NCBI GenBank assembly: GCA_944383355.1
Contig: CALWPF010000019.1
Coordinates: forward strand, 1-33,237
Origin: an uncultured Clostridia bacterium
Lineage (GTDB): Bacteria > Bacillota > Clostridia > Christensenellales > UBA1242
Reading direction: 5' to 3'
Length of the DNA stretch: 33,237 bases
Part shown: piece after piece, positions 2,671-32,353 of the stretch
Layout of the letters: each line of letters starts with the position of its first letter
Position numbering within the stretch: position 1 is the first letter of the stretch
The notes under the pieces: model-generated
Told to the model about the DNA's origin: nothing
Seen by the model: only the letters and a program-made list of their open reading frames with translations
Databases searched by the model: none
Translations under genes and position numbers: made by a program

Positions 2671-2811
2671 AAATAAATTATATTTACCTCGCATTATTGT
2701 AGTGATTAATTTGATATCATAAAATTAATTTTATAAAAGTCTTTATTGGGACTTAACACAAATTAAGTATTAAAATTATATTTTTAATAACTTGGGTTGG
2801 GTACTAAAAAT

Positions 2812-2844
2812 AAAAACTTTATCTAGAGTGTAGATAAAGTTTTT
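2812..2844. terminator. Terminator of the proS operon
   Basis: A 14-bp perfect stem (AAAAACTTTATCTA with TAGATAAAGTTTTT) and a 5-nt loop, followed on the minus strand by TATTTTTAG. It lies 29 bp after the stop of the dehydrogenase gene. Confidence 0.85.
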
Positions 2845-2873
2845 TAAATTACATTACTATCCCCAATAATCAA

Positions 2874-3932
2874 CTATTCATCACTTATAATCTTATTTTC
2901 CCTAGTACATGGAGGTAGTCCTAACATTCTACGAGTAGCATTGTAGAGCTCCAATCTATTCTCAGAGTCCAAAACATATTTACTAGGCATCTGAGGCTTA
3001 CTATCTTTGTAATACACTACACGCACAGGGAGCTTTGGGGCGTTGATGAGGTACATTACCGTACTAATACCCTCCTCTATTGATACAGCATTAATATTAC
3101 GCCAATCATTGAGCCAGCGCCTAAAGCCTGTTGTGCCTTTGGTAGTCAATGGTGTCAAAACCTTGCCTGGATTCACAGCAAAAGTCTTGACGTTTTCCTC
3201 ATCTAGATGCCTATAGTCAAACTCCAGCGCAAACATCAAGTCAGCCAATTTTGTTTGCTCATACAGTTTACTTGCCTTACTACGCTTTGGCTCACGGATA
3301 GCACGCCAATCCAACTGTAATTTGCGTGCCTTGTCATCTGTCATAAATATTATCCTACCATCGACACTCTTGCGAATATATGGATACAATAACTCAGTCA
3401 GCAAACACGCTGACAAATAATTGGTAGCCCATTGTACCTCATGTCCCTCATACGTCATTTGAATATCTTGCGTCATTACCCCTGCGTTGAGATACAATAC
3501 ATCAATATGCTCATAACCTAGTTTTTGCATTTTTTGCTCAATATCCTCTACCAAGGCTCTCACTTGAGCCATAATTGATAGGTCTGCCACCAAAAAATGT
3601 AAATCTAGCTCAGGGTATTTTTGTCTCAATTGTAGCATTATATCTCTACACAATTGTGGCCTACGCCCTACTGCAATTACACAGCAATCTCCCTGGGCTA
3701 CCAAACGCTTTGTAACCTCTAGTCCCATACCACTAGTAGCACCAGTGATGATTACTAATTTTTTTGTAGGTTTGGTGACAGCAGTTTCCTTTGATGCAAC
3801 CTTTTTGTCAGTTGTGGACTTTTTTGGTCTACCACGAGTAGCCTTTACAGTTTTTGATGTGTTTGATTTTGGAGCGCTAGCACTCTTTGACTTACTAGTA
3901 GTCTTTGATTTTTCCTCCAACTCTTTAGCCAT
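2874..3932 (-). CDS. Short-chain dehydrogenase with AT-hook-like N-terminal tail
   Basis: A 352-aa protein. Residues 57-300 form an SDR Rossmann domain: TGATSGMG (63-70, dinucleotide binding), NAG (149-151) and catalytic Y224-x3-K228 (YEQTK), with the NPG turn at 254-256. The overall pattern resembles retinol-dehydrogenase/WWOX-type SDRs that reduce or oxidise lipophilic carbonyls with NAD(P). The usual catalytic serine position reads MTDD (197-200), so Ser may be replaced by Thr or Asp. Residues 1-56 are a Lys/Ser/Thr/Ala-rich disordered tail with RGRPKK at 33-38, matching the AT-hook core (RGRP) of proteins that bind the minor groove of AT-rich DNA; such a tail is not part of normal SDRs. 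AGGAGG lies six bases before the ATG. It is the last gene of the proS operon, 50 bp after the repeat protein. Substrate unknown. Confidence 0.85.
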   Translation of the reverse strand: MAKELEEKSKTTSKSKSASAPKSNTSKTVKATRGRPKKSTTDKKVASKETAVTKPTKKLVIITGATSGMGLEVTKRLVAQGDCCVIAVGRRPQLCRDIMLQLRQKYPELDLHFLVADLSIMAQVRALVEDIEQKMQKLGYEHIDVLYLNAGVMTQDIQMTYEGHEVQWATNYLSACLLTELLYPYIRKSVDGRIIFMTDDKARKLQLDWRAIREPKRSKASKLYEQTKLADLMFALEFDYRHLDEENVKTFAVNPGKVLTPLTTKGTTGFRRWLNDWRNINAVSIEEGISTVMYLINAPKLPVRVVYYKDSKPQMPSKYVLDSENRLELYNATRRMLGLPPCTRENKIISDE

Positions 3933-3982: not shown

Positions 3983-6661
3983 TTATGGACTATAAGCATC
4001 TATTACAGTTTGTAGAGTGATACCCTCCCAATCTGTTACTTGGGTACCCTCTGGACAATCCAACAAACCTGCTCTAATAAAATCTGCTATATCTATTGTC
4101 GCAAAATTTACATTACTAAATGCGTCACCAATATTGTTGATTGACACACTCAAGTCTACTCCCTCCAAGGCTAGCACTCCACTGGTAGGTGTACCTACCA
4201 CATCAGCTAGGGTCATATTGGTAATTGCATCTTGCAACCCACCTACAGTCAAATTTTGATTGCTCTCCTTGGTCAATAATTTATACAATACGGTGTCTTT
4301 GTCCATTGTACTTGTGTCAAAAATACTGGTTAACTTAATACTATTTACCACGCTAGTAATCTTTGTACTGATATCACCAGTACCAAATAAATCACTCAAA
4401 GTGAGTTGACCTAGCACATCGCTAGCCAAACCAGATGCAGACCCTTTGCCTATAAATTGTAGCAAAGTTGTGTTGCTAGTAGCCAATTTATCATAAATCT
4501 TTTGCCCTGGATTGGTACCAAACAAGTCAGCTACTGTGAGGTCACTAATGAGTGTAATCAATTGATTGCTATCATCATTATTTAATAATGAACCTAATGT
4601 TACATCGGTAGCACCTTTTAGTGCGTTTTGGAATGCTGTACCAGCATCACCATTGAGCAATTGATTTACGTTAATGCCAGCTATTACCTTGGTTAACCCA
4701 GTAGGATTGTCTATGCCCAATAATGTAGCCAAAGTATTTTGATTACTGTCACCACACAATGCTTGCATAATAGCGCTCTCAGCATCGGCAAATAATTGCC
4801 CTACTTGAATATTACTAATGAGAGTAATCATTGCATTATCTGGAGTAAAGTCCAAAAATTGTGCTAGAGTCACTGTAGATGAATTTATTGCGTTACTGAT
4901 AGCATTAGGATTATCGAGTAACTCTTGAATGGATATATCTCCAATAATAGCAAATATACCCTCATTACTGCCACACAATTCACCAATGGTACCAAACTCT
5001 GCAATTATAGTATTCAAAGCATTAGGGTCATCAAATATCTCGCCTAGTGATATATCAGCCAGTCTATACAATTGACTCAGTTGATTACTTGCCCCTACTA
5101 TATCTTGAATACTCAGTGCGTCAAATCTAGTATCAAAGTCACTAGCTGTAGCAGTAGCCAATACGCTCAAATATCCACCAACAGCATTGATGTTGTCTGT
5201 CCCTAATAATTGAGATATGCTCATACCTGCATTGCTTTGTAATAATTGTGGTATCGTCATCTCTTGTTGTGCGGTACTGAGACTGGTATTTGCTAATTGG
5301 CTAGCTGTCAGTATTTGATTAATCTTTAATCCTTTTACACTTTGTGCAAATTGACTAATAGGTGTATCCTCTAAAGAAGCAAACTCTGGATTGTTTACAA
5401 AAAAGTTTTCGTCAACTATACCAGACAATGTCACTAAGTCACCTAGCATCATAGAGTCTAGCTTTGCATTGATTGTGGTATCTGCATCACGAATGAGGTC
5501 GGTAACCTTGATATCTCCAAGTGCGCTAATATTCATCTCCGACATATCAACTAAATCATTTATCGTTAGATTTGGATATCCCTCGGCGCTATCTATGAGG
5601 TTAAGTATAGCAGTCATTGGGTCATCGCCCAATAACATATCAATATCCATATTCCTCACTGCATAGAGTAATTTGTCACTAGTCGTGCTACTACTTGTAA
5701 TGCTAGTAGGTACATCTATGATTTGAGAAAGTGGCACAGTCTGTATATAATCTACCATACTAGATAACTTTGTTGCGCCAAACTCTGCCGTCTGAGTAAA
5801 GGCAAAATCGGATAAGTCAACTACTTGTGTCAAAAATTTGCCGTCCAAATTGTCCAAGATATCATCGATGCTAACAGATGTCAGTAACAAACCACGAATC
5901 CCAGCATACACATCGGTCTCACCAGTTACTGGATCTGGTATAAACTCTTGTAAACCTAGTGCATCTACTACATTTTGAATGGTAAGATTGTCACTGCCAT
6001 AGTACTCTACCAACACATCTTGTGCCTGGGATATTGTGAGGCTAGACAAATCTTTGTACACAGGTTGCTCTAGTGTACCTACATTGTATATTGCATCTAC
6101 CAATGCTGGGTATCCCATTTCTTGGATAGTTGTCTGCATATCCAGAGTGGTCAATATCTCACCTACGGTCGTGTTGTCATAAAACACTGGCAAGATAGCA
6201 TCAACAAACGCATCAAGGTTGTTTACAGCATCCATCAACTCTATATCTTTTACCACAACTGTTGCATTATTAAACTGTACACTTGCGTCATATAGATAAG
6301 TTATACTAATGTCAGTACCTGGGATTTTTTGAGGTAAATCTATGCCCAGTTTGCTCTCAACCTCACTAATCTTCATATGTACATAATTATCTTTTGTCTC
6401 CAAGGCTAGTGAAATTAATTCACCAAAAGATTTATTGCGAATATCACCGTCTATTGGCAACTCAGTACCGAGTATTTTCTCTATTTGTGCTAAGTTCATA
6501 CCAAACCATAGGTACGCACCTGTACCACCAAATACGATTACAAAGAATAGTAAGCAACAGAAAAAACCTGTAAAAAATGTACCGCAACCACCCTTTTTCT
6601 TGGTAATCACTCTTACATTATTACCATCTTTGTCTCTTGCCACTTCTTCCTTTTTGGACAT
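3983..6661 (-). CDS. Membrane-anchored extracellular repeat protein
   Basis: 892 aa. A short charged cytoplasmic N-terminus (about residues 1-27, ending KKKGGCG) is followed by one membrane segment (about 28-54, rich in Phe, Gly, Cys). All the rest is predicted outside the cell (type II orientation by the positive-inside rule). The ectodomain is a string of degenerate 25-45-residue units around motifs such as LTVADLFG, VNQLLNG, ISIQELLD and LTLSDLFG, suggesting an all-alpha solenoid. It is acidic, Asn/Thr/Asp-rich, nearly free of Cys, with no sortase motif, catalytic site or known adhesin domain recognised. The start is ATG at 6661 with a weak GGGGG(T) site. The gene is 36 bp after proS and 50 bp before the dehydrogenase, with no promoter or terminator in either gap, so the three are probably co-transcribed. 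Function unknown. Confidence 0.85.
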   Translation of the reverse strand: MSKKEEVARDKDGNNVRVITKKKGGCGTFFTGFFCCLLFFVIVFGGTGAYLWFGMNLAQIEKILGTELPIDGDIRNKSFGELISLALETKDNYVHMKISEVESKLGIDLPQKIPGTDISITYLYDASVQFNNATVVVKDIELMDAVNNLDAFVDAILPVFYDNTTVGEILTTLDMQTTIQEMGYPALVDAIYNVGTLEQPVYKDLSSLTISQAQDVLVEYYGSDNLTIQNVVDALGLQEFIPDPVTGETDVYAGIRGLLLTSVSIDDILDNLDGKFLTQVVDLSDFAFTQTAEFGATKLSSMVDYIQTVPLSQIIDVPTSITSSSTTSDKLLYAVRNMDIDMLLGDDPMTAILNLIDSAEGYPNLTINDLVDMSEMNISALGDIKVTDLIRDADTTINAKLDSMMLGDLVTLSGIVDENFFVNNPEFASLEDTPISQFAQSVKGLKINQILTASQLANTSLSTAQQEMTIPQLLQSNAGMSISQLLGTDNINAVGGYLSVLATATASDFDTRFDALSIQDIVGASNQLSQLYRLADISLGEIFDDPNALNTIIAEFGTIGELCGSNEGIFAIIGDISIQELLDNPNAISNAINSSTVTLAQFLDFTPDNAMITLISNIQVGQLFADAESAIMQALCGDSNQNTLATLLGIDNPTGLTKVIAGINVNQLLNGDAGTAFQNALKGATDVTLGSLLNNDDSNQLITLISDLTVADLFGTNPGQKIYDKLATSNTTLLQFIGKGSASGLASDVLGQLTLSDLFGTGDISTKITSVVNSIKLTSIFDTSTMDKDTVLYKLLTKESNQNLTVGGLQDAITNMTLADVVGTPTSGVLALEGVDLSVSINNIGDAFSNVNFATIDIADFIRAGLLDCPEGTQVTDWEGITLQTVIDAYSP

Positions 6662-16339: not shown

Positions 16340-18600
16340 TTAAACCAATGAAAAGTCATCACTACCAAAGCTATGTTCTAGACTAACACCACTTAGACTA
16401 GCGGTAACATTTAGTCTATTACTATAATCTATACTAAAATCAAAACTTGCTTTACCAAACCAAGGGAAGTTATCATTTACTAGGTCTGTACCATTACCCG
16501 TACCTGTTCCTGTAGCAGTTACTTGTCCGGCTATAACCAACCGAGTCAAATCATAATACGCATATCCAGCCATTACTGCGACTCCACCAGAGCTACCGTT
16601 AACTGTTAAGGTAAATGTACCAGATACATTACACGAAATATCTGCAATCATATATCCAGCTACACAGGCTATGTAACCTCCGCTTGCGGTTATTACTACA
16701 TTACCGCTCACAGTATTTGTACCAAGCATGAGGTTTTTGTTACCATCTCCGATAGCACCCAATTCACCTACCAATCCACCTAGCCTACTATCACCTGTTA
16801 TAGTTATACCATTTACACTTACATTGGTCATTTGGGTAGCTATACGACCTGCCAGTCCACCTACCCTAGAGCCACTAGCCTGTATGATTAGCCCCTCAGT
16901 ACTACAAGCATTGAGAGTACTGCTGATAGTCGCATCACCTACTATTCCACCAATATAATTTGCACCTACTATAGCACTATCACCTGTACCTGTCTCAAAG
17001 TTACCCCAGACATCTCTATAGTAAACTACATTGACGCTACTTATACTATCTATACTTGTTCCTGCTACTCCTCCCAAGTAGTCACTACCACTCAGGTATG
17101 CGAGGTTGACACTTATACTACTAATAGTACCATCATTTTGACCTGCAATACCACCTACATAATTACCACCTTGTACACTTACGCTATATGTACCGCCAGT
17201 AATACTACCTCTGTTGTGTCCTGTAGCTCCTCCGTGATAATTACTATTACCATATATATTACAAGATATCGAACAATTGGATATAGTTCCATTATTATAG
17301 CCAGCTATACCTCCAGTATATGTACCACCAGTAATATTAAACATTGTACTGATGTTAACATTGCTGATAGTACCACTGTTGTTACCTACTATACCACCAA
17401 TATTGCTAGAGCTACCTGTAATGGTTACATCACCCTTAATTTCTGGTGTACCGCTCAGTGTAACACTAGTAGGGTTATTACCAACCAAACCAACATTGGT
17501 AGATGCTCCTACATTTACACTAAATGCCCCAGCAATGCTAAAGCTATCTAAATCTAGATTAGCAGTACTCTCTCCTACAAATATACCTATATTGTTACCT
17601 GTACCAGAGATAGACACACTGGTTGCTGATACGGAATTTCCACTAACATTTGTACTAGCATTTTGACCTATTATTAGACCTACAGCATTTGACGTCTGTA
17701 TAGCAGATATCCCCATATTGCCACCAGCAAAAATATTATTTGACACCGTACCGCCAGAGCTATTTTGCCCTACAATACCACCGACATTAGTATTACCAGT
17801 GATAGTGCCAGCGCTTTGTGTAGATTGAGTTACAGACCCATTTGTATAGTTTTGACCAACTATTCCACCTATACTAGAGGTACCAGATACAGAGCCATTG
17901 TTGGTACAGTTTGTAACAGTACTTGCATTCCTACCTACTATACCACCAGCATAACTACCACCACGCACTGTTGCGCTGTTGGTTACACCACTAATATTAG
18001 CACCGCTATTATTGATGCCAGCTACTCCACCTACATATGTACCAGTGATGGTATAGCCACTAGATACACTGCCACCACTAATACTACCGCTATTGTAACC
18101 CACTAGTCCACCAGCATTACTACTAGTTACTGTAATGCTACCATTTCCGGTTAAGCTACAATCTACCATTTGTATAGCACTAGCCCACAATGATCCAGCG
18201 ATACCACCAGCATTTGATGTCGCAGTTATCTGCAAGTTATTAACTGTATTATTGGCAAAACTAGAAGTATCTCCAACCAACTCACTAAATCCTGCAATAC
18301 CACCTATGTACTGGCTACCAGTCAAGTTGATGTTGTCTACAGTACAGTTTTGAATTACATTATTATTAACACCCGCTATACCACCAATCCTGCTGGTTGA
18401 GCTAGAGTTGATAGTAATATTACTAGCCTTACAATGCATTATGTGACCTGTGCCATTACCATTAATACCGACCAATGCTCCATTGCCAGTACTGCCAGTC
18501 TCTGTCAGGCTAAGAGCGCCATTACCAATTACCTCAATATTGTGTAACATACCGTAATTTTGCGAACCTAGCACATTAGTAACACTTGTCCTAATGGTGA
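16340..18600 (-). repeat. Dense GLUG repeat array at the C-terminus of the giant protein
   Basis: About 750 codons with GGIVGQN, GGVAGIN, GGLVGYN and similar cores every 20-30 residues, each followed by a short turn such as SGGTVSN or NGTISN. In the DNA this shows as recurring antisense words such as ccacctac, ccaccaata and acctac(t)ataccacc. The copies are diverged at DNA level, so this is an old array, not a recent tandem duplication. Confidence 0.85.
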
Positions 18601-21600
18601 GTATAGTATCTGTAAATGTTCCGTCATATTCTACCCTCACACCACTATCTCCGCTCAATCTATAGTAGTCCACAAAACTAACCTCGCCAATCATGTCAAA
18701 TAGTGGCTTGTGTATATTGTCAAATATAACTGTATTGCCCTCTGGTACCATTAGGTATCCGTTTAGTGTATTTACAGTCCAGTCATAATCACCCATATCA
18801 TATATGATTTGACCTGTGCCATCTGGCTCCTTTGTGAGTAAGTAATAGCCGTCCTGTGCCATTCCATTGGTGAGATAATAAGCCAGTATCTCCTCATTTG
18901 GTATTTGTATAGGGTTACCCTCTACGCCTCCACCAGTATTGAGTATCCTACCATAGCTAATTATCAAATATGGCCAACCATAGTTGTACTCAACATCTTG
19001 AGCCCATAAGCCACTTGCCAACACCGCACTAGCAAATGCGTTATCAGTCTTCATTGTCTCATAATCTGTACCTATAGCATAGGTTTGATTACTTGCAGTT
19101 ATCCCCTCCAGTCCAGTATCGGTAGAATACACTGCCTCAACTTGACCAAACTGAGGAGATGCTGTAAGCACGCTCGGACTAACCTCATTTACATGTCCTA
19201 GTAACGGCTGAGTAGCTCCACTACTTGCCTGAGATGATATCATACCAGTACTGAGCAACTTAAATATCTCAACACAACTATTTGTATTACTATCAGCGTA
19301 ACCCAAGATACCACCTACATATGCTACTGCTGTCTGGCTAACGCCACGACTGAGAGTACCAGTAAATGACAAGTTAGCCAATTCGATACCACCAGTAACA
19401 TTATCTGTTTGACCTACTACACCACCTAGGTATGTGCTAGCATCACCTGATACAGTAATACTTGCGCCACCCCAACAGTTGTTTACAAAACCTTCGTTGT
19501 AACCTACTACACCACCAATTATCAAGTTAGCTCCTGAGTCGTTTGACTCAATTCTACCAGAGCCCTGTACACCAGTTGCGTAAATTACACAGGTCTCACC
19601 TAGGCTAGCTACAGCACCACCAAAGTAACTGTAAGAGTTGTAACTAGTCCTACATTGTACATTATTGAGATCAACATATAGACCAGTAATTGCACTAGGT
19701 GTACCATCTTCGCTAGGTACGACATCACCAAATACTCCATATCTAGTACTACTAATGCCACTGTACTCTACATTGATTACATTACCTGCACCGTTAAAGA
19801 ATCCAGTAAACATATACTCGCCTAGAGGTTTCTCACTGGTACCACCCAAGTCAATTACTATATTGCTAGTATTTAGCAAGTAATACAAGTAAGTACCATT
19901 ATTCTCTTGCATACGAATGTCGTTAAATTGCTCTGCTGTATCTATCAAAATTGGGTTTACCTTGGTACCCTCTGTAGCAAATAAACTATTAAATACATCA
20001 TACAATGTCTGGTACTCACTACCCATACTCTCAAAGAATTCCTCAAATTGTGTCAAGGTAACTTGATAAGCACCATTGGTATCCGTGATAGTATTGTTTA
20101 ATGCATAATTGTTGTTAATAGACGCTAATGAGTAATAGGTATCACAAGTAATCTCAGTACTTGCACCAGAGGTAGCTCTAATACCCGCATAAGCATTTGT
20201 CTCAGATAAATATGAGTTATTGAATATTGATACTAATGAATAATTTGACCTCAGTGTAGCATCGTTTGCCATACCAGAATTTTCGCTACCAAAACAACCA
20301 CCAACATAAGTATTTACATAACTCTCTACCACACTATTTTGGTTAAAGCTGTACAGGTAGATATTATATGCACTGACATTGTTGGCTACTCTTGTTGACA
20401 ATATCTCACCTGCCATACCACCAATGTTGTTTGTCATAATTGTTGCACTACCATTGCGCCTATCTACCTGGTTGGATAAATCAGCATATATACTACCGTC
20501 TACAAATACCATACTCACTGCATTACCAGTACCATTGTACAATTCTCCAGCAAATCCACCAATATTCAAGTTGTGGTAAATATCGTATGTACTTGCACCA
20601 TCTGACCATTCAACAGATTGAGTATCGGTATCATAGTTGGCAATCATTATATCCATATGGTTGATTACATTGCGTATTACGCTGTTGTAATTAATTGCAC
20701 CAAAACTACCACCAATATTTATATCCAGATAATTTGCAGTACCACTAGCGGTAGTTGCGTCATTTTGCTCTAGTGTAATAGTACCAGTACTAGCTACTCC
20801 AGAGACATTAGTCGCATATGCTCTACCTATAGCACCACCTACATAAATACTAGTCCCATCTACGCTTGATTGAGGAGTACTGTATGCTATCATAGCATCT
20901 TGTACTGTTGCATTTTGTAGAGTAGCACCACTGCCAGCATAACCTACTATACCACCTACAACTGTAGCTGTTGTATTAATATCGATATTACTCAAATGTA
21001 CATTGTTGATAAGAGTGCCTTCGCTATAACCTACCAAGCCACCAACATATGCAATAGCATCAGGGTTGAGCGATGTGGTATAACTAATGTCGGATAAATA
21101 CAAGTCATTTATCTCTCCACCCTTTGTATATCCAAATATACCTACTGTATGTGCTGTAATTCCATTTAAGTGTACATTGGATATTGTATATCCGTTACCA
21201 TTCAATACTCCACTAAATGGTTGGTTTTGTGAGCCAACTATAAAGTAAGGCATGTAATGAATCTCGCTATCATCACCTACATAACGCAAGTTGATACTAG
21301 CTCTCAAGTTGTAGGTCTTGTCAGGTCTCCAATACATTAGTATCAAATCATCTGCACTATCTATGTCAAATGATTCTGGCGCCTGCCTTTTCTCTATAAC
21401 TGGCGTACCATCTACATTGTATCCATTGATACTGTATTGGTCCCAAGAGCCATAGAAAGTATTTGGATTAGCTATCAAATATCCACGAGTAATAGTGATG
21501 TTTTCATCTCCTACTACCTCTGGAGCGATCTCGCCTGTCGCCAACTCAAAGTCATCTAATGATGTACTAGACCTGTATGCTCCCACATCGCTAAGTAATA

Positions 21601-24600
21601 TCGAATTACTTTGCACTGCGGTAGCGGTAGTAGCAATTTCACGATTCGTTATCTCACGGTTATAGTAATTAATCTGACTAATTTCCTTTACATGAGATGT
21701 AGACAAGTTTCTACTATCGCTCACCATACCGACTAGGCCACCTAGGTAACCTGTACCCTCACCATTACTACCTAGTAATGTGCTGTAGTATGAGTAATAC
21801 GATGCTGCCCAGTTGTTGTGTGCAACTGCAAAATCTATACTCAACAATTGATCTGGTAGACTCTGAATATTTACAAATGGGTTAGCTACCTCAATAGCAT
21901 CTACATTCCTACCAGCGTCCAAGATATTACTTGTAGTAACACTATCAATAGTGGATACTTGACCAATGAGACCACCTACACTTGCTGTAGTAGACCCTAC
22001 TACCGTACCAGTAGCATATACTGCCTTGATATCTCCACCAAAGCTAACACCGATGAGTCCACCTGCATTTTGAGCTGTGGTACTCATAACATATAGTGAG
22101 CTAGTAGAGTAACGAATAGTACCAGTCTGTCCAGCATTATAAGTAGCACCAAAGTTTAATCCTACCAAGCCACCTACACTAGCTATAGGATTGTTTGTCT
22201 CAAAGACATTTATAGCATTGGTAGATAATGCACCTGTACGAGCAGAGTTGATAGTATTTTGAAGAGCAGTGATATAGTGAGCACTACTATAAGTGATAGT
22301 ACCATTATTTTGCCCAACTAGACCACCTACAAAATTGTAACCTCTCAACCTTGTAGTCTGAGCAAATATAGCCTCGGCGTTTGTAAATATAGTATTACCA
22401 CCGATAAATCCTGCCACACCACCTACGCTACTACCTACTATTGTACCTTCTCCATCATAGGTCAAGTTAGTACTCAATATAGTATTATAATTGGATAAAT
22501 CTATAATATCGTTTGCGTTATATGGCTCTAGGTCTACTACACCAAATAAACCACCAGCATAAGACAACCTATTGATAGGATTGGATATAACATTTTTGCC
22601 CATCAATCTAATAATATCTCTGTTATACATCAACACTTGTATATCTTCTTGAGAATATGTAGCAGTTACAGCCAAGTCACTCTGGATATCATTTATCCTA
22701 GATTGACCAGTCACATAGCCGACAACACCACCTACTAGGTTACCACCTATCACACGACTGTCTTGGGCACCAGTCACAGTAATATTATAAATGTAACCAC
22801 CATTCACTGTACCTGCCAATGTACCTACAGTGTTGATTTGCCCAGCAGATACACCAACCAACTCTAGATTGAGGCTCTTTACACTACCATAGTATGACCT
22901 CAACGTACCACCTTGCTCAGTGACAGTATCTGTCACAATTGCCTTGAATAATCCAACACTAGTGATATTCTCTTGAGTAGTACCAGAGCCTATGCTCACA
23001 CTATTAAACCTATTTACTGTATCAGCATCAGTCAAATCCTCTGCACCTATATTGATACCGCTAATGGTAAAGCCATTACCCTCTAATATTCCAGCATAAG
23101 ATGTAGTAATTGTATCTAGGTTAGTATAACTATCCTCTAATCCTGTGAGGTCTATATCATCTACGATGCGTGCAGTAGTCCTGTTGACACTACCAGCATT
23201 ACTCAAGTTTTGATTAAACTCTGTAGCATCTCTAATAACTGTTGGGTTGTAGGTATAGCCTTTTGGATTACTACTGTCCAATACAAATCCAGTGTCAAGT
23301 GTATAGATATTATAAACATAGGTCACTACTCCATTGGCATCTGTAGTAGTAGCATCTCTATCAAGAGTCCAAGATACAAAGTTTGTAAGCAACTCTGCAC
23401 CAACCAATCTTGGTCCAAAGTAAATATATTGTCTACCTGATGTGTCAGTGTATGTAGATTTAAAGTAAACGTTGTTGTCGTTACCAAATACCCAAATACC
23501 CAAGAATTCTTGGTCAGCGTCTGTCACACCAGCACCTGTTCTACTAAAACTAAATGTATTCCAGGAGTCAAAATAAGCATCATTTGTATTATTAAATTGG
23601 TCTGCACTGAGTGCCTCTGCCTCCTCATATATGAGCGAACCAGAAGGATACCCAATGTCATAGTAATATGCGTTTGTGATAATACCCTGATTGTTGTTTG
23701 TAGTACTACTGAGTCCCATTGTACCTATAAAAGGTGTACCTGTACGGTTTGCAACAATCTCAGTAACACTAGTAGTATATGCTCGATTTATCACACCGTT
23801 GGCAGTGTTGATGAATACAAATCCACTGGCATTGGTACCGTTGTTGATAAATGTTGCGGAGTAACTATCAGTGATATTACCACTGTTACTAAATACAAAA
23901 CCACCTGCGTATATAGCGGACTCTATCCTCAACCCACGATTAGCGTTGTCCAATACAAATTGATTATAGCTATTCCTGGTACGATACGCACTACCAGCAT
24001 AACTACCATAGATTACAGCATTTTGATTGTTATATGCTACCAATCCAGCAGTAGCAGTATAATTCTCTAGATAAGCTGCAGCATTGTTTCTTATCACTGC
24101 AATATTCTCACCTTGAGTGATAGAACCATCTACATAACTACTAGCAATGACACCGTTGTTTTGAGCAACAAAACCTGCAACTATACCATCACCAGTAAGA
24201 CTAATATTTTGTACATGACTGTTGGTAATGTTACCATTATTTGTACCAACAAAACCTGCTATATTGTGTGTCTGGTTATTACCACGCCCACCAGCAATGG
24301 CTACTGTGTATCCAGCGACTCCACCTGTTGACTCTACACTACAGTTGGTGATAATACCATTATTTACACCAGCAAACAATCCAAAGTTGAGTGTAGAATA
24401 TGTCCCCTCTAGCGCCAAGCTGAGTCCTGAGCTAATACCCACGATTTGCACACGCAAGTTTTGGATAAGAGTATCTTGGGCTACTGTACCAAATACACCA
24501 TATGTAGTGATACTGGTATTCCTAGGATACAATTCATGTTGCATGATGAGGCTGTATCCATTACCATTGAGACTAGCAACATTGATATCCATAGGTGTCC

Positions 24601-27600
24601 ATAATCCATTTATATCTAGCTCGATATCATTCATCAATATGTAGTTTCGCCCTGCTTCCATATTCATAAATTCATCTATTGTATATACTGGTACAGGGTG
24701 GTCTACTGATGACTCTTGATAAAAGTTTACTCTAATCTCACTAGTCCAGTGGAATGTTGGGCTCACTCCAGAGTCAGCAGATGTGAGCGCAAATTGTCCA
24801 TTGATATAGGTAAAGTACAAATCTGCTTGGATATATGAGGTATTGCTGACTCTATTAGGAGAGATAGAATAGATACCAGTCTGGTCAGATACCTTAAATA
24901 AGAAGTTGTTATCTACAGTCACACCATCATTTGATGCCTCATCATATGTGATGCTCTGGTATGCGCCTGCAGAATTACGATAAGACCAAGTATTGTATAC
25001 ATTTGATTCTCTAATACCGTTGATTCTCTTGATAACATCTATCAAGCTATTTACAGCAGATGTATTAGCAGAGCTAATGGATACGCTATCAGGTATCACT
25101 AGATTACTTGCTGTTAAGTTTTGCAATAATACATTTTGAGGGAATATGGTCAAGTCATAATACTTATCTTTGATGTAATTTGCACTGAATGTACCATTGC
25201 TAACATTTTGAATAAAGTTTGATATATTATCTACAAAAAAGTCTACTACGACAAATGTCAATCTACGTATAACTGTACGATTATAACCATCTATATATGT
25301 CTGTGCACTAAAGGTCACTGTGAATTGTGAGCCAACATCTACATAAGGACTAATCTTGAGATAATACTCGCCATTGATATTGTGTAAAGTTACAAAACTT
25401 CTCAAACTCTGCTCAGTAGTCACTGGTGTACCATTATTCACAGAGAATAAACTACCATTCGCTCCACTGACTATCCCAAGAGATGTTGCTAGTCCAGTAT
25501 AAGAGCTATCAATGCTAAGATTTATCTTGTTTTGATTATTTTGCTTTGTAGTCTGCAACTCGCTCACCGTAGATACACCTGTACCTACAGCAATGTATGC
25601 CCTGTCTGTACCACTATTGTAGTGGTCAAAGGATACAGTAAACTCAGCTAGCAATCTCACCGTAACCTCTTGGGTATGAGTAGCAATGATAACATTGTCT
25701 TTGTATATATTAACCGTTATATAAAATACTGCCTGAGTAGTAATAGCACTAGCTATAATTGTACGCATATAATAAGTGCCGTTAAACTCTGGCGTACCAT
25801 CGCCATTATAGGTAGATGCCTTTGCCAATCTAATACCGTTAGGCACTATACTCACTCCACTTGAATAAGCATAATAACAATCAGTATCAGCATCATATAC
25901 CCTCTGCTCAAAACTAATTACATCATTTTGAGCACGATTACTCAATACCTCAATAAAATCATAACTAGCGTAACTAGGGTTCACTGTGACACGGAGTAGT
26001 CCGTATTCACCAGCTATGATGTTGTTTGTAGGCTCGTTACCTGCACCCTTTAGATAAATAGCATCTTCACTAGTAGTCTCCACATCACTAAAGTGCTCTA
26101 TAGTGAGTCCTGTAATAGGTTGAGGTGTCACTGTCACTAATATAGTCTTTGAATAAGTCCCTACTATGTTTTGATTGGACAAGTTGCAGTAATTAAATAC
26201 AAAAGTAAATGTCATATTAGTGCCAATGTTTTTGTATTGGTCTGTCATTTCTATCAAGAATGGATAATTGATATAACGAACATTATCTGTACTCTGTGTA
26301 CCAAACATTACACTAAATACACCTGTATCTATACGCACATTTTTAAATTTTGAGCCATCACTCTGTATACCTACTGTGTATTCGTATACTTTGTTGTCAT
26401 CAGTTTCGTCTGGCTGTGTACCTTGATAAATAGTCAATCCAACAAAACTATTGCGACTACCTACCACGCCATCAACCATCTCCATATCAAAATCATCTGT
26501 AGTAAGAGTGGCAATTATCTCAATATCGTCACCAGCATACATTGACATATTACCCGAATCAATATCTAGTCCTGTCACACCATTGTACACATCAATGTTA
26601 TAATCAAGTACAGCATTTGGATTCATAGCACTGTTGGTCTTACCAGAGTTAGCACCATCAGCATCATAACTAGAGCCTACATATAGGTCAATTTGCTCAC
26701 TCTTTAATGTACCAGTACTATCATAAAATTGTGCCTCCAAATATGGAATAATAGCAATCTTGGTCTTTTTATCAGCGTCTTCACTAGTCTTTTGGAGTGC
26801 TGTCAATGTAAATACAGAATTGTTGTAACTGAGTACATATTTATTTACGCCATCGCTGAGATCAATCCATTTGCTATCATTGATCAAAATACAAGCATTA
26901 CCGTTATCATCATACAAAGTGTTGCCATTTACAATAATGCGTACACCACCATGTACATCGGCAATTTCTCCATCACCTACAGTACCATATTGATAATATT
27001 TCACTGTAAATTGCACAGTATTGCCTTTTTGTATCTCAAAGGTCCCCTCGCTACTAATAGGTGTCAATTGATCATCAGGACTATAAATCCGTATATCATC
27101 AAAGCCTTGGACTACACAAATCTGTATAACATCGTACACATCAGTGTTTTGACTACTGTGGATATACAACATTGTAGTACCAGTACCTTGAATATAAATC
27201 ATATAGTCGAGTACTGTAGCACCTGATACCACCCTCAAAACCGAGTCATTTGTATTGACAATATATACTAGCAGTTGACTCAAATCAACCTCTGGGTCAG
27301 TTGATATACTAAATAGTCCATCGGTACCAAACAACTTGTAAGATGCACCCGTTTGATAACGAATAATGATATTTTTATTATAATCTACTCCACCGCTATT
27401 CACACCATTACCTAGGAATACTGATGCAAAATTTTGACCTGTAGTGTCATAGATGTTGTCATAAATACTCTGGCCATAGGCATTCGCTAATATGCTATTA
27501 GGAGTAACGACTAGGAACATTTCTCCATTTAGCAGTAGATATGGCATACCATAATTCCTGTCTCCAGTAGTATCTATACCCCAATCACCCACAGTGTTGT

Positions 27601-30600
27601 TGGAGCAATCAAAGCCCCAACTAATCCAATTAGCCTGACTGAGTGTATTGTCCTCATGTATTACACTGCTAAAGCCTGCTTGGTACGCACCATCGCTAGT
27701 AGGTAATCCAGTAGGCACCACTATAGCAAAAGCACTACCAATATTAACCGAGCTAGTCACGCCACTAGGTATTACCCAAGGCAAGTATTGAGATGCATAT
27801 GTAGTCAAGCCACTTACTTGGATAGCATTGTTTACTACGCAAGCATCAGTATAAACCTCATCAATATTTACCTGATTACCTGTCACGCCACCAGAGAGGC
27901 TACCAAATATAGTACCTGCTACAGCACCCATTTGACCATTGCTGATAACATAATTATTTAGTGCGATATTACCATGTGAGTATGCATAGTTGATGTCACA
28001 ATTTGTACCTAGGCTAGTAAAGTACCCCGCTATCAATCCAGCGACAGTACCACTCGCTCCAGCGCTGTCAGCAATATTGAGCTCTGTATAACTGTTACCT
28101 ATGAATGTCCTACCATTTACTAGACCTACAATACCACCTACATAAGATTTTACATCTGTACCATTACTATCACCACTGACTAGCAAATTTGGTCTAGTAG
28201 AGGTAAATGATATAGCATATCCAAAACTAATAATAGACTGTGCATTACTAGAGTACACTTGACCTACTACACCACCTATATTACCTATACCATAGATACC
28301 TATAGAATCGTCTTCGTTATTGAGTATTTGATAACCTACATTGTATATCAATGCGCCACCTTGCATCAATCCTACTATACCACCAAGATTACCATGACCA
28401 TAGATGACAACAGTACTCAATGTAGAATAATCCGCATTGGTATCATTGATGTTACCGAGGTTGTGCCCTACAATACCACCAATATTGATACTGTCATAAT
28501 CACGCAAAGTATGGTTACCTGTCACAGCTTGAGTAATAGTACCGCTAGCTCGACCACCCCATATAGTAGCACCTGACACATTTTGTCCTACCAGCATACC
28601 AACATTTGAGTCTACTTTACACTCCTGTATTGTGATGTTTGAGTTACTACTGAGGTCACGAATATACTGCGAACCTTGCTGTGTATCGTTATTTTTACCC
28701 AGCACAGCACCAAAGTTGAGTGAAACATTGCTAGTGGATATAATAGCATTCATGCTAGTAGTAATATTTATTAACTGTGTAGAATTTGTCCCAGTAGATT
28801 GAGTAGTTGTACCAATTACACCAAGGTTAATTGTACTATCTCCATTGTATCCACCAGTAGCATCTGACATATAGCTAAAGTTATCAATAGTGACATTAAC
28901 ATTTGAGACAATACCTCCACAGTTATTACCTACCAATGCACCAATATTGTACTCTCTAGCACTACCATCAGCAAACAACACATCATTGTGCCTTATTACA
29001 AAGTTTGTTATAATAAAGTTAACATAAGCTATTTGCGCACCATCACCAATATAATTGAATATACCAAAGTTTAATGGCACACTACCTCTCTCTGTATCAT
29101 CATAAGAGATACTCCACCCAAGGATAGTATTTACCTGAGGCGCCTGCGAATCACTAGGTATAGTCTCTAGTCCATTTACATTGTAGCCATTACTAAATAA
29201 TGTACCAGTAAATGGGTGGTCCATACTACCTATACCTGCCCAACTAGGGTTGGTACGACAATATGCAGACATATCTATACTATTCATCAATACAAAATTT
29301 TTGTCCAGACTCTCAGCATTCATCATTGCGACTACATCTTGAGCATCATACAATTCATATGGATTCTCAAGGCTACCATCAGCTACATAAATCTCTATAC
29401 GGCGTATTACTGAGTTGCTAGCTAGGTAGGATTTTGAATTGTAATCTACAATATTCTCTAGATATTCGTCCATTATATCTAGAGGTACGACTAGCAACAA
29501 CGCCCTACCAGCATTGAGAGCTTGTATCTCATACAAGCCAGTTTGCTCATTGAGAATCAATCTAGCAGTCTTACTACTGAGCGGATTGTTGTAATAATTC
29601 TCTCCACCTGCATCAATACGAGGCACTGGCACATAGTTGCCATTGCTATCTTCTTGCATATCAAATATTAGGTATCCTACCTCTGGCAATGTAGCATCAA
29701 GTGGTTGTACAGTTACATTGAGTGGGAATGTCTGCTCAGTATTATTTTGATTAAAGTTAGCAATCAATCTACTGCCTGTATTGCGTATGCGCACACCATT
29801 TTGACTACTCTCATCTATCAATATCCTAGTCACAGGAGTTTGTTGTCTAACTATTACCTTGATAGTGCGTATATGCGTCTGCTGATAATCACGCACAGTT
29901 ACAGATACATAAAACTCAGCATATGTAATATTACCTTGCAAGATACTGCTATCCCTATTGAGCTGAATAGTCATTCGAGAGCCTATTAATGGAGTGCTAT
30001 CAGTAGAAATATAAGTATTAGTACCATCGTACAATTGCCCCATACCACTGTAATATTCGTTGTATATACGCCATTCGGCAGTACTAGCATCGTGTGTAGT
30101 GTCCTCTGGTCCAGTGGTAACAGTTACCTCTGCCATAGCCTGCTCATTACTATATACACTACCATTATTATCACTATTGACAGACCACAACAACTCAACT
30201 GTATCAGTAGACAGTGTCACTGTAGTAATAGGCTTGTATACATTGATAGTAAAGTAATATTCGTACACATCAATGCGGTCCTGACCATCTGAGCCATACA
30301 CTCTATAGGATACTTGTAGTACAATCTCTGCTAATCCTGTAGACTGAGTCTCTAGTATAGCCTGCTCACCCGTGCTACTACTGAGGTCACGAATATTCGC
30401 TACATTAGTGTCATTACTTTGATATTTGACAGACACTATATCAGCATTACCAGGATACGCAGTATTATAAAAGTAAATTACGCTAGAATTGGTTACATAA
30501 ATATTTGATATTGACTGTTGTATACCATAGTTACCACAATCTACATCGGTATAATCTATCTGTCCAATACGAGAGGATTGCCCCGACATAATTGTGTCTA

Positions 30601-32353
30601 CCACATATCCCTCTAAACCATTAATGACCTCTACATCCATGATGTAGGTCACGCCTGTCTTTGAGGAGAATGTAATCTCAGTATCACCAACGCCCATCGC
30701 TGTTATTATAAATTGTCCAGGAGTATCACCAGCCACTACTGTAGCAATGCTGGTATCACTAGAAAACGCACCATCTATACCAGTCAATGAGGCATTTGTA
30801 GGCGTAACAGCTAGATTAACCACACGAGTACGTGCGCCCACGCTATTTAGTTGTAATATCAAACTATTGGAATCATCATCTAGTGTAGTACTAGGGTTAG
30901 CTACACTAATAGAGCGTATACCATACTCCATAGTAATCACTATATTTCGAGATACCTCAGCAAGTATTGGATTACCTAGCGTAGAGGTTGCGCTGACCTT
31001 TAGTATAATAGTACCGGTTACACCATTATTGACTAACTTTATATCTTCTCCACTATTCAATGTAATACCATTGTGGTCTAGATAAACAGGTGTATTGCTT
31101 GCACCAATATACCAAGATAGACCGTTCAGCAACTCAGCACCAGTAACAACACTGATGGTAAATTGTCCATACTCATAGTGATAAGGTGCCAGGACAATAT
31201 CTAGGTCAGTACCTATAGCATTGCGGTACTCATCATACACAGTGAGCGCATAATCTGTAGTACCGGATAGACCATTAATTACAATATTTTGAGGATACTC
31301 CACTGTCCTCACATCGAGTGGAATAGTCACAATCTCACTATTTGATATCCCCCTCACTGTTACATTGATATACAGAGTAGTGTCAGTAGCGTCATATCCA
31401 GTAATAGTAAACTCTCCAGCATCATTATCAATATCCAGCCCCAATTTGTTGTCTATAATGCCACTAGGGGCAGTAATGTCAAAGTCAATATCACTACCAC
31501 CCTCATTAACTATAGAATAACTCAATTGATTTGGATTAATAAGATATCCACCTATAACAGCAGGAGTACCATTGAGTATGAGCTCTACCTCATTAGTCTC
31601 TAGGTAAGTATTGGTATCGATATTGTAAATCTGTAGATTATCTGGATCTATTGGATAATAAGTCCGGATCGTAAATGTAACAGTTAGGTCTACATTATCT
31701 GGATCCTCAGTAGGATAACACCTGATAGTCAAATAATCTCCTGCAGGAGCAGACTCTATGTAGATAGTATCACCAGTCACATAGTCACCTACGCCTGTAA
31801 TTTCAAAGGTATACTCTGGCACAGTATAGCTAGCTGTACCAAAACTCAAAAAAGTATTTGGGTTCAATGTATAATTAACCCCTATAGGTATACCCATGCT
31901 GTTTATGTTGTTTACTACTGTAGCATGGCTAGGCGACATAATACAGCGCACTAGTACTGTATTTTTTATGGCAGAATTCTCAGTACAGCTAGCAGTCAAT
32001 GTGACATACACACTATCAGTAGTGGTATCTACTCCGTATATCTCCACAAAGTTTTGTCCATCTTGCTGATATGAGCGATTTACTATAACCTTGGTTGGGT
32101 CACTAGATACCCAATCAACAGTATCCACCATACCACCACTAAGTCCTGTAATCTCAGCGGATAATGTAGCGGTCCTAGTCTCAGGAGTAGACAAATCTAG
32201 CAAGATATACCTAGTCTCCCCCTCTACTGTCCAGTTTTCGCTATCTATTGTGATACTGACACCCTGGTATGGGTCACCACACGCAGCAAAGCCAAAAAGG
32301 CAACAACATAGTGCCACTACACATACTGATATTTTTTTAATTATATTTGCCAT
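16340..32353 (-). CDS. Giant surface lipoprotein with Ig-like and GLUG beta-helix repeats
   Basis: 5337 aa with no interruption. The N-terminus is a lipoprotein signal: KK, a hydrophobic core, then GFAAC at 21-25; Cys25 would be lipidated and tie the protein to the outer face of the membrane. Ig-like (BIG2-type) stretches fill about 30-960; the clearest, near 480-580, has LNSVGARTRVVNLAVTPTNA. Six modules of the type 'tidEF..m..g.nYiLmnDIeLd....G.l.GnGy.I' begin near 990, 2550, 3035, 3660, 4125 and 4475. They lead into or sit beside GLUG repeats (GGIVGxNxGxI, about 20-30 residues each), predicted beta-helix. A further Ig-like region fills about 1600-2540; the last 750 residues are almost pure GLUG. 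No LPxTG, enzyme or toxin domain seen. AGAGGT lies seven bases before the ATG. Such proteins are usually adhesins or surface-layer fibres; that role is inferred. Confidence 0.93.
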   Translation of the reverse strand: MANIIKKISVCVVALCCCLFGFAACGDPYQGVSITIDSENWTVEGETRYILLDLSTPETRTATLSAEITGLSGGMVDTVDWVSSDPTKVIVNRSYQQDGQNFVEIYGVDTTTDSVYVTLTASCTENSAIKNTVLVRCIMSPSHATVVNNINSMGIPIGVNYTLNPNTFLSFGTASYTVPEYTFEITGVGDYVTGDTIYIESAPAGDYLTIRCYPTEDPDNVDLTVTFTIRTYYPIDPDNLQIYNIDTNTYLETNEVELILNGTPAVIGGYLINPNQLSYSIVNEGGSDIDFDITAPSGIIDNKLGLDIDNDAGEFTITGYDATDTTLYINVTVRGISNSEIVTIPLDVRTVEYPQNIVINGLSGTTDYALTVYDEYRNAIGTDLDIVLAPYHYEYGQFTISVVTGAELLNGLSWYIGASNTPVYLDHNGITLNSGEDIKLVNNGVTGTIILKVSATSTLGNPILAEVSRNIVITMEYGIRSISVANPSTTLDDDSNSLILQLNSVGARTRVVNLAVTPTNASLTGIDGAFSSDTSIATVVAGDTPGQFIITAMGVGDTEITFSSKTGVTYIMDVEVINGLEGYVVDTIMSGQSSRIGQIDYTDVDCGNYGIQQSISNIYVTNSSVIYFYNTAYPGNADIVSVKYQSNDTNVANIRDLSSSTGEQAILETQSTGLAEIVLQVSYRVYGSDGQDRIDVYEYYFTINVYKPITTVTLSTDTVELLWSVNSDNNGSVYSNEQAMAEVTVTTGPEDTTHDASTAEWRIYNEYYSGMGQLYDGTNTYISTDSTPLIGSRMTIQLNRDSSILQGNITYAEFYVSVTVRDYQQTHIRTIKVIVRQQTPVTRILIDESSQNGVRIRNTGSRLIANFNQNNTEQTFPLNVTVQPLDATLPEVGYLIFDMQEDSNGNYVPVPRIDAGGENYYNNPLSSKTARLILNEQTGLYEIQALNAGRALLLVVPLDIMDEYLENIVDYNSKSYLASNSVIRRIEIYVADGSLENPYELYDAQDVVAMMNAESLDKNFVLMNSIDMSAYCRTNPSWAGIGSMDHPFTGTLFSNGYNVNGLETIPSDSQAPQVNTILGWSISYDDTERGSVPLNFGIFNYIGDGAQIAYVNFIITNFVIRHNDVLFADGSAREYNIGALVGNNCGGIVSNVNVTIDNFSYMSDATGGYNGDSTINLGVIGTTTQSTGTNSTQLINITTSMNAIISTSNVSLNFGAVLGKNNDTQQGSQYIRDLSSNSNITIQECKVDSNVGMLVGQNVSGATIWGGRASGTITQAVTGNHTLRDYDSINIGGIVGHNLGNINDTNADYSTLSTVVIYGHGNLGGIVGLMQGGALIYNVGYQILNNEDDSIGIYGIGNIGGVVGQVYSSNAQSIISFGYAISFTSTRPNLLVSGDSNGTDVKSYVGGIVGLVNGRTFIGNSYTELNIADSAGASGTVAGLIAGYFTSLGTNCDINYAYSHGNIALNNYVISNGQMGAVAGTIFGSLSGGVTGNQVNIDEVYTDACVVNNAIQVSGLTTYASQYLPWVIPSGVTSSVNIGSAFAIVVPTGLPTSDGAYQAGFSSVIHEDNTLSQANWISWGFDCSNNTVGDWGIDTTGDRNYGMPYLLLNGEMFLVVTPNSILANAYGQSIYDNIYDTTGQNFASVFLGNGVNSGGVDYNKNIIIRYQTGASYKLFGTDGLFSISTDPEVDLSQLLVYIVNTNDSVLRVVSGATVLDYMIYIQGTGTTMLYIHSSQNTDVYDVIQICVVQGFDDIRIYSPDDQLTPISSEGTFEIQKGNTVQFTVKYYQYGTVGDGEIADVHGGVRIIVNGNTLYDDNGNACILINDSKWIDLSDGVNKYVLSYNNSVFTLTALQKTSEDADKKTKIAIIPYLEAQFYDSTGTLKSEQIDLYVGSSYDADGANSGKTNSAMNPNAVLDYNIDVYNGVTGLDIDSGNMSMYAGDDIEIIATLTTDDFDMEMVDGVVGSRNSFVGLTIYQGTQPDETDDNKVYEYTVGIQSDGSKFKNVRIDTGVFSVMFGTQSTDNVRYINYPFLIEMTDQYKNIGTNMTFTFVFNYCNLSNQNIVGTYSKTILVTVTPQPITGLTIEHFSDVETTSEDAIYLKGAGNEPTNNIIAGEYGLLRVTVNPSYASYDFIEVLSNRAQNDVISFEQRVYDADTDCYYAYSSGVSIVPNGIRLAKASTYNGDGTPEFNGTYYMRTIIASAITTQAVFYITVNIYKDNVIIATHTQEVTVRLLAEFTVSFDHYNSGTDRAYIAVGTGVSTVSELQTTKQNNQNKINLSIDSSYTGLATSLGIVSGANGSLFSVNNGTPVTTEQSLRSFVTLHNINGEYYLKISPYVDVGSQFTVTFSAQTYIDGYNRTVIRRLTFVVVDFFVDNISNFIQNVSNGTFSANYIKDKYYDLTIFPQNVLLQNLTASNLVIPDSVSISSANTSAVNSLIDVIKRINGIRESNVYNTWSYRNSAGAYQSITYDEASNDGVTVDNNFLFKVSDQTGIYSISPNRVSNTSYIQADLYFTYINGQFALTSADSGVSPTFHWTSEIRVNFYQESSVDHPVPVYTIDEFMNMEAGRNYILMNDIELDINGLWTPMDINVASLNGNGYSLIMQHELYPRNTSITTYGVFGTVAQDTLIQNLRVQIVGISSGLSLALEGTYSTLNFGLFAGVNNGIITNCSVESTGGVAGYTVAIAGGRGNNQTHNIAGFVGTNNGNITNSHVQNISLTGDGIVAGFVAQNNGVIASSYVDGSITQGENIAVIRNNAAAYLENYTATAGLVAYNNQNAVIYGSYAGSAYRTRNSYNQFVLDNANRGLRIESAIYAGGFVFSNSGNITDSYSATFINNGTNASGFVFINTANGVINRAYTTSVTEIVANRTGTPFIGTMGLSSTTNNNQGIITNAYYYDIGYPSGSLIYEEAEALSADQFNNTNDAYFDSWNTFSFSRTGAGVTDADQEFLGIWVFGNDNNVYFKSTYTDTSGRQYIYFGPRLVGAELLTNFVSWTLDRDATTTDANGVVTYVYNIYTLDTGFVLDSSNPKGYTYNPTVIRDATEFNQNLSNAGSVNRTTARIVDDIDLTGLEDSYTNLDTITTSYAGILEGNGFTISGINIGAEDLTDADTVNRFNSVSIGSGTTQENITSVGLFKAIVTDTVTEQGGTLRSYYGSVKSLNLELVGVSAGQINTVGTLAGTVNGGYIYNITVTGAQDSRVIGGNLVGGVVGYVTGQSRINDIQSDLAVTATYSQEDIQVLMYNRDIIRLMGKNVISNPINRLSYAGGLFGVVDLEPYNANDIIDLSNYNTILSTNLTYDGEGTIVGSSVGGVAGFIGGNTIFTNAEAIFAQTTRLRGYNFVGGLVGQNNGTITYSSAHYITALQNTINSARTGALSTNAINVFETNNPIASVGGLVGLNFGATYNAGQTGTIRYSTSSLYVMSTTAQNAGGLIGVSFGGDIKAVYATGTVVGSTTASVGGLIGQVSTIDSVTTSNILDAGRNVDAIEVANPFVNIQSLPDQLLSIDFAVAHNNWAASYYSYYSTLLGSNGEGTGYLGGLVGMVSDSRNLSTSHVKEISQINYYNREITNREIATTATAVQSNSILLSDVGAYRSSTSLDDFELATGEIAPEVVGDENITITRGYLIANPNTFYGSWDQYSINGYNVDGTPVIEKRQAPESFDIDSADDLILMYWRPDKTYNLRASINLRYVGDDSEIHYMPYFIVGSQNQPFSGVLNGNGYTISNVHLNGITAHTVGIFGYTKGGEINDLYLSDISYTTSLNPDAIAYVGGLVGYSEGTLINNVHLSNIDINTTATVVGGIVGYAGSGATLQNATVQDAMIAYSTPQSSVDGTSIYVGGAIGRAYATNVSGVASTGTITLEQNDATTASGTANYLDINIGGSFGAINYNSVIRNVINHMDIMIANYDTDTQSVEWSDGASTYDIYHNLNIGGFAGELYNGTGNAVSMVFVDGSIYADLSNQVDRRNGSATIMTNNIGGMAGEILSTRVANNVSAYNIYLYSFNQNSVVESYVNTYVGGCFGSENSGMANDATLRSNYSLVSIFNNSYLSETNAYAGIRATSGASTEITCDTYYSLASINNNYALNNTITDTNGAYQVTLTQFEEFFESMGSEYQTLYDVFNSLFATEGTKVNPILIDTAEQFNDIRMQENNGTYLYYLLNTSNIVIDLGGTSEKPLGEYMFTGFFNGAGNVINVEYSGISSTRYGVFGDVVPSEDGTPSAITGLYVDLNNVQCRTSYNSYSYFGGAVASLGETCVIYATGVQGSGRIESNDSGANLIIGGVVGYNEGFVNNCWGGASITVSGDASTYLGGVVGQTDNVTGGIELANLSFTGTLSRGVSQTAVAYVGGILGYADSNTNSCVEIFKLLSTGMISSQASSGATQPLLGHVNEVSPSVLTASPQFGQVEAVYSTDTGLEGITASNQTYAIGTDYETMKTDNAFASAVLASGLWAQDVEYNYGWPYLIISYGRILNTGGGVEGNPIQIPNEEILAYYLTNGMAQDGYYLLTKEPDGTGQIIYDMGDYDWTVNTLNGYLMVPEGNTVIFDNIHKPLFDMIGEVSFVDYYRLSGDSGVRVEYDGTFTDTILTIRTSVTNVLGSQNYGMLHNIEVIGNGALSLTETGSTGNGALVGINGNGTGHIMHCKASNITINSSSTSRIGGIAGVNNNVIQNCTVDNINLTGSQYIGGIAGFSELVGDTSSFANNTVNNLQITATSNAGGIAGSLWASAIQMVDCSLTGNGSITVTSSNAGGLVGYNSGSISGGSVSSGYTITGTYVGGVAGINNSGANISGVTNSATVRGGSYAGGIVGRNASTVTNCTNNGSVSGTSSIGGIVGQNYTNGSVTQSTQSAGTITGNTNVGGIVGQNSSGGTVSNNIFAGGNMGISAIQTSNAVGLIIGQNASTNVSGNSVSATSVSISGTGNNIGIFVGESTANLDLDSFSIAGAFSVNVGASTNVGLVGNNPTSVTLSGTPEIKGDVTITGSSSNIGGIVGNNSGTISNVNISTMFNITGGTYTGGIAGYNNGTISNCSISCNIYGNSNYHGGATGHNRGSITGGTYSVSVQGGNYVGGIAGQNDGTISSISVNLAYLSGSDYLGGVAGTSIDSISSVNVVYYRDVWGNFETGTGDSAIVGANYIGGIVGDATISSTLNACSTEGLIIQASGSRVGGLAGRIATQMTNVSVNGITITGDSRLGGLVGELGAIGDGNKNLMLGTNTVSGNVVITASGGYIACVAGYMIADISCNVSGTFTLTVNGSSGGVAVMAGYAYYDLTRLVIAGQVTATGTGTGNGTDLVNDNFPWFGKASFDFSIDYSNRLNVTASLSGVSLEHSFGSDDFSLV

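Follow-up and report, generated by a model that had tools for sequence, protein, structure and literature searches.

The CarD protein of Myxococcus xanthus combines a folded bacterial domain with a disordered tail in which four AT-hooks of the RGRP type accompany an acidic segment (PMC4374960). The actinobacterial WhiB7 protein carries a single RGRP hook (PMC10245118), and AT-hooks can bind RNA too (PMC11354804). We describe here an SDR-like protein with an AT-hook-bearing tail, encoded in a stretch of 33,237 nucleotides from an uncultured Clostridia bacterium; this whole stretch is referred to as the window. The assembly of the source genome has a size of 1.23 Mb. The features of the locus are listed in Table 1. 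Almost half of the window is occupied by another gene, at 16340-32353 (-), which encodes a predicted secreted protein of 5337 aa with Ig-like and GLUG-type glycine repeats (recognized by eye).

Table 1. Positions of the SDR gene, its parts and the adjacent features in the window
Feature	Position	Strand	Evidence or remark
Intrinsic terminator, 14-bp hairpin and T run, 3' of SDR gene	2806..2847	-	Fold -12.9 kcal/mol, z -6.0
AT-hook-tailed SDR-like protein, 352 aa, ATG at 3932	2874..3932	-	ORF, Shine-Dalgarno, PF00106, AF2 model
SDR (retinol-dehydrogenase/LPOR-like) domain, about residues 57-342	2907..3764	-	PF00106, Foldseek, VIA-align
Y224-E-Q-T-K228, catalytic Tyr and Lys	3249..3263	-	Invariant in all aligned homologues
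Asp199 codon, catalytic Ser position	3336..3338	-	Alignment of 28 homologues
Disordered Lys/Ser/Thr-rich tail, residues 1-56	3765..3932	-	Composition, shuffle test, pLDDT
RGRPKK, AT-hook core, residues 33-38	3819..3836	-	Sequence; PF02178 13.9 bits; tandem hooks in 9 orthologues
Partner gene, 892-aa single-pass membrane protein, long helical ectodomain	3983..6661	-	Directly upstream of SDR gene

Tail, SDR domain and active site

The initial annotation described an SDR domain preceded by a Lys/Ser/Thr-rich tail with RGRPKK, and the reading frame, the Shine-Dalgarno sequence, the PF00106 match and the AlphaFold2 model all agree with this arrangement. A strong AGGAGG Shine-Dalgarno sequence with normal spacing lies 5' of the ATG at 3932 (AATAGGAGGAATACTATG), so the tail is translated. 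A Shine-Dalgarno-like site also precedes the first ATG in nearly all orthologues. The 56 residues of the tail include 14 Lys, 10 Thr, 9 Ser, 6 Ala, 3 Pro, 2 Arg and 1 Gly. Both Arg residues and the sole Gly fall in RGRPKK, and RGRP arose in 34 of 1,000,000 shuffles of the tail letters. The motif has the GRP core with basic flanks that defines AT-hook proteins (PF02178), although the score of the Pfam AT_hook profile for the window protein, 13.9 bits, is under the curated cut-off of 17.4. This single putative hook is made convincing by the orthologues described below. Residues 1-53 are disordered in the AlphaFold2 model (pLDDT <50; 11 sequences), and the SDR fold begins at residue 55.

PF00106 matched residues 58-265 (E 5e-22, 78.7 bits against a cut-off of 26.6), and the model matched SDRs in both Foldseek and VIA-align. 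The nearest solved folds were light-dependent protochlorophyllide oxidoreductases (LPORs; 7jk9, VIA-align Z 29.2, with an LPOR match of 275 residues at 2.7 A) together with 3rd5, a mycobacterial SDR, the remaining SDRs scoring at Z about 23. Among NCBIfam models the protein was nearest to the PRK06197/PRK05854 oxidoreductase group, far below their cut-offs, and it did not reach the cut-off of the LPOR equivalog TIGR01289 (52.6 vs 331.35).

Among the classical SDR elements, the TGxxxGxG motif (TGATSGMG), N171, Y224 and K228 are present in the window protein, and the catalytic Ser is not. The suspicion that this Ser was changed proved right: the alignment puts Asp199 at its position, with Tyr224 and Lys228 kept. 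The spacing of 25 residues between D199 and Tyr224, counted on the alignment, equals that between Ser and Tyr in the closest tail-less homologue. Tyr224, Lys228 and Asn171 are invariant across the alignment of 28 homologues, in which the 17 tail-less relatives all have Ser at the catalytic position. The 11 proteins of the tail-bearing clade have Ser (three), Asn (three), Arg (two), Lys (two) or, in the window protein, Asp in this column. The loss of Ser is by itself no proof of lost catalysis; catalysis may be altered instead, as the cofactor motif is intact along with Tyr, Lys and Asn.

Orthologues, gene pair and AT-hooks in the bacterial family

The search of 309 family genomes, three of which belong to the genus of the window and nine to its sister genus g41, revealed 10 orthologues, nine in g41 and one in the window's genus (genome G002). 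When about 85,000 species were scanned, the same MAGs came up again, several of them from ruminants judging by their titles, and beyond these there were only ordinary alphaproteobacterial SDRs. A single clade (100/100) on a long stem (0.93) comprises the eleven tail-bearing proteins; it is sister to tail-less SDRs with the catalytic Ser. No relatives were found in viral contigs, the plasmid matches listed were all ordinary SDRs with identities of at most 35%, and neither the SDR nor its partner had a PADLOC match; viral and plasmid origins and a defence function were rejected. Genome G323 contains a second SDR-like sequence (28% identity; L123:17192-17863), which is separated from the AT-hook SDR by about 16 kb.

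All nine g41 orthologues (482-629 aa) open, at the extreme N-terminus, with 4-6 tandem GRP-core hooks, almost all of which match (K/R)-P-RGRP-(R/K). They continue with an acidic linker of 142-256 aa, in which a PAKH motif is invariant, and then with the SDR domain. Seven of these proteins scored above the curated Pfam AT_hook cut-off (whole proteins, 20.9-42.9 bits). The HMGA-like combination of several hooks with an acidic disordered segment was thus found in 9/9 sister-genus orthologues, whereas the window protein has one hook and no acidic segment. The expected conservation of RGRP in relatives held for 10 of the 11 clade proteins, the window protein included, and failed in the G002 orthologue, which has a Lys/Thr/Ala-rich, histone-H1-like tail instead.

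Within one gene, 2.35 of the 4 synonymous core codons differ on average between hooks. The hook peptide is therefore kept by selection at the protein level, and this divergence led us to reject the idea that the hooks stem from a recent expansion of DNA repeats. In the SDR core, dN of the closest pair was 0.10 compared with dS of 1.6, the other pairs being saturated in dS. The core is under purifying selection and the protein is therefore maintained; a decaying pseudogene was rejected on the basis of this low dN relative to dS and a frame that is open in 11 genomes.

The partner gene lies directly upstream of the SDR gene in 11/11 loci. Its product has one transmembrane segment at residues 24-55 and a long helical ectodomain (AF2); it had no Pfam match, and a PDB fold search with the AF2 model, whose pTM was only 0.35, gave no match. 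As the partner gene is present without the SDR gene in genome G042, the SDR is the optional member of the pair. In eight of the nine g41 genomes, mnmE, parA, parB or dnaA was found within the same fetched region, the ninth contig being only 8 kb long; for the SDR gene of the window, the distance to the C-terminal part of dnaA is about 29 kb. An origin-proximal position of the gene pair in g41 is thus suggestive, although synteny inherited within one genus may explain it.

The AT-hooks of the window's genome were surveyed by profile and pattern searches. One extra pattern match (G000:C8:49857) was discarded because it is not in frame with the Lys-rich tail in which it lies. Whole-genome scans detected at least one hook above the cut-off in 12/12 genomes of both genera; in the window's genus, this hook sits on another protein than the SDR. 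PF02178 matched at E 0.02 or better in 181 of the 309 family genomes compared with none of 14 control genomes, and at E 0.05, in a sample of 99 relatives, in 31/59 family members compared with 4/40 members of the order's other families. Many of the hits inspected were one membrane/coiled-coil protein with up to 11 C-terminal hooks; forms with 5-11 such hooks occur in many genera (L052, L054, L055, L063, L072 and others). The same protein has a hook-free Lys/Ser/Thr tail in the window's genome (G000:C8:47558 onward; L182, L197) and acidic tails in g41, and it is possibly a general membrane-nucleoid tether. In this family, AT-hook and H1-like tails seem able to replace one another. This agrees with the tail of the G002 orthologue and supports the view that the tail binds nucleic acid. 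The window's genome also encodes two further membrane proteins with two C-terminal AT-hooks each at G000:C2:44262-44369 (L047) and G000:C5:7317-7424 (L049), with hooks such as PRGRPKGSKNK and RGRGRPAGSKNK; the L047 protein has relatives with a C-terminal hook in G001 and G002. An N-terminal RGRPKK with a Lys-rich tail was seen on a radical-SAM methylthiotransferase-like protein (RimO-like, by eye) of genome G023 (L080, contig C3). Almost every genome of the family, that of the window included, encodes HU, so the AT-hook proteins are no substitute for it. Judging by the family-wide arrays on membrane coiled-coil proteins, AT-hooks may be a general chromosome-binding module in these small-genome gut Clostridia; we found no description of such a module in these bacteria in the literature.

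Possible roles of the protein

On balance, we lean towards a nucleoid-bound, NADP(H)-binding derivative of a retinol-dehydrogenase-like SDR that is not a standard Ser-Tyr-Lys oxidoreductase. The sequences themselves show the tail and its hooks and how far these are conserved, that Ser was lost, that the SDR core is under purifying selection, that the two genes are paired and that they lie close to the origin in the sister genus; DNA binding, NADP(H) binding, oligomerization and an association with the membrane partner are predicted. Because the relatives carry 4-6 hooks in a row, the protein is probably located on the chromosome and is probably not an ordinary enzyme. DNA binding would be the natural reading of such hooks by analogy with CarD and WhiB7, and nucleoid binding of the window protein itself can fairly be inferred. 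The SDR core with its kept NADP(H) pocket may serve as a folded, probably oligomeric scaffold or as an NADP(H)-responsive module. Oligomers would multiply the hooks and might thereby bridge DNA, and the predicted two-gene operon with a single-pass membrane protein may place the SDR protein near the membrane. A redox-sensing role, as proposed in the initial annotation, is possible for the window protein. The nucleoid reading is weakened by the single sub-cut-off hook in the window and by the absence of any hook from G002 of the same genus; the intact Tyr, Lys, Asn and glycine motif and the Ser kept in 3/11 clade members count against a protein that is no longer an enzyme. If the preferred reading is correct, this SDR, in which the catalytic Ser drifts, would clearly exemplify the recruitment of an enzyme fold to the nucleoid, and it allows NADP(H)-dependent DNA binding to be tested directly.

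It is possible, though less likely, that the protein is a still-active oxidoreductase which uses Tyr and Lys without Ser and is parked on the nucleoid by its tail. LPOR-like or dihydropteridine-reductase-like SDRs use Tyr-Lys without Ser. The kept Tyr224, Lys228, Asn171 and TGATSGMG, the strong purifying selection, the LPOR as the nearest fold (Z 29.2) and the three clade members that retain Ser would all suit such an enzyme. However, the Ser column accepts Asn, Arg, Lys and Asp, bulky and charged residues among them, which is unlike a conserved active site, and the gene pair has no metabolic neighbours.

A more far-reaching form of the preferred nucleoid-bound derivative, in which the SDR has become an origin-proximal protein of the nucleoid that responds to NADP(H) and together with its membrane partner ties the chromosome to the membrane, seems doubtful to us. 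We consider it unlikely that the protein is an RNA-associated SDR whose cationic tail has RNA, ribosomes or another polyanion as its target and not DNA. RNA binding by AT-hooks is known (PMC11354804), and RGRP-type hooks are present in the N-terminal part of a protein of a related genome (L064) that was recognized by eye as the RNA-binding factor Rho; on the other hand, the sister-genus hooks are canonical K/R-P-RGRP-R/K, which like those of HMGA and CarD have the proximal Pro and are accompanied by an acidic segment, and the genomic position is near the origin. A low-complexity tail that merely raises solubility or charge, with no specific binding, would agree with the single hook in the window, its absence from G002 and the Lys-rich tails of other proteins in these genomes, but is highly improbable in view of the 4-6 canonical hooks with divergent synonymous codons kept in nine species.

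Comparison with described systems

The LPOR and retinol-dehydrogenase-like SDRs are the closest to the window protein in both fold and profile matches and have the same cofactor and Tyr/Lys motifs. We know of no AT-hook tail in these enzymes. No paper on an AT-hook in a bacterial SDR was found in our literature search, and the papers containing both terms concern plants or animals according to their titles. The Lys-rich tails of histone H1 and HupB resemble in composition the G002 tail (KKVATPKTTKTVKTKQPAKVVKKA) as well as the surroundings of the hook in the window protein, but the globular H1 or HU domain is absent here.

The likeness to WhiB7 consists in one RGRP hook on a small protein with a redox-type cofactor domain (PMC10245118). 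However, WhiB7 has an Fe-S cluster and contacts a sigma factor, neither of which is indicated for the window protein. The fusion of a folded bacterial domain with an HMGA-like tail is rare, CarD being the one case that we found. The sister-genus orthologues share the design of CarD in reversed order, their hooks being N-terminal, and the window protein differs from it in its single hook and the absence of an acidic segment. The folded domain of CarD is the RNA-polymerase-interacting CarD_CdnL domain, whereas here an SDR occupies its place.
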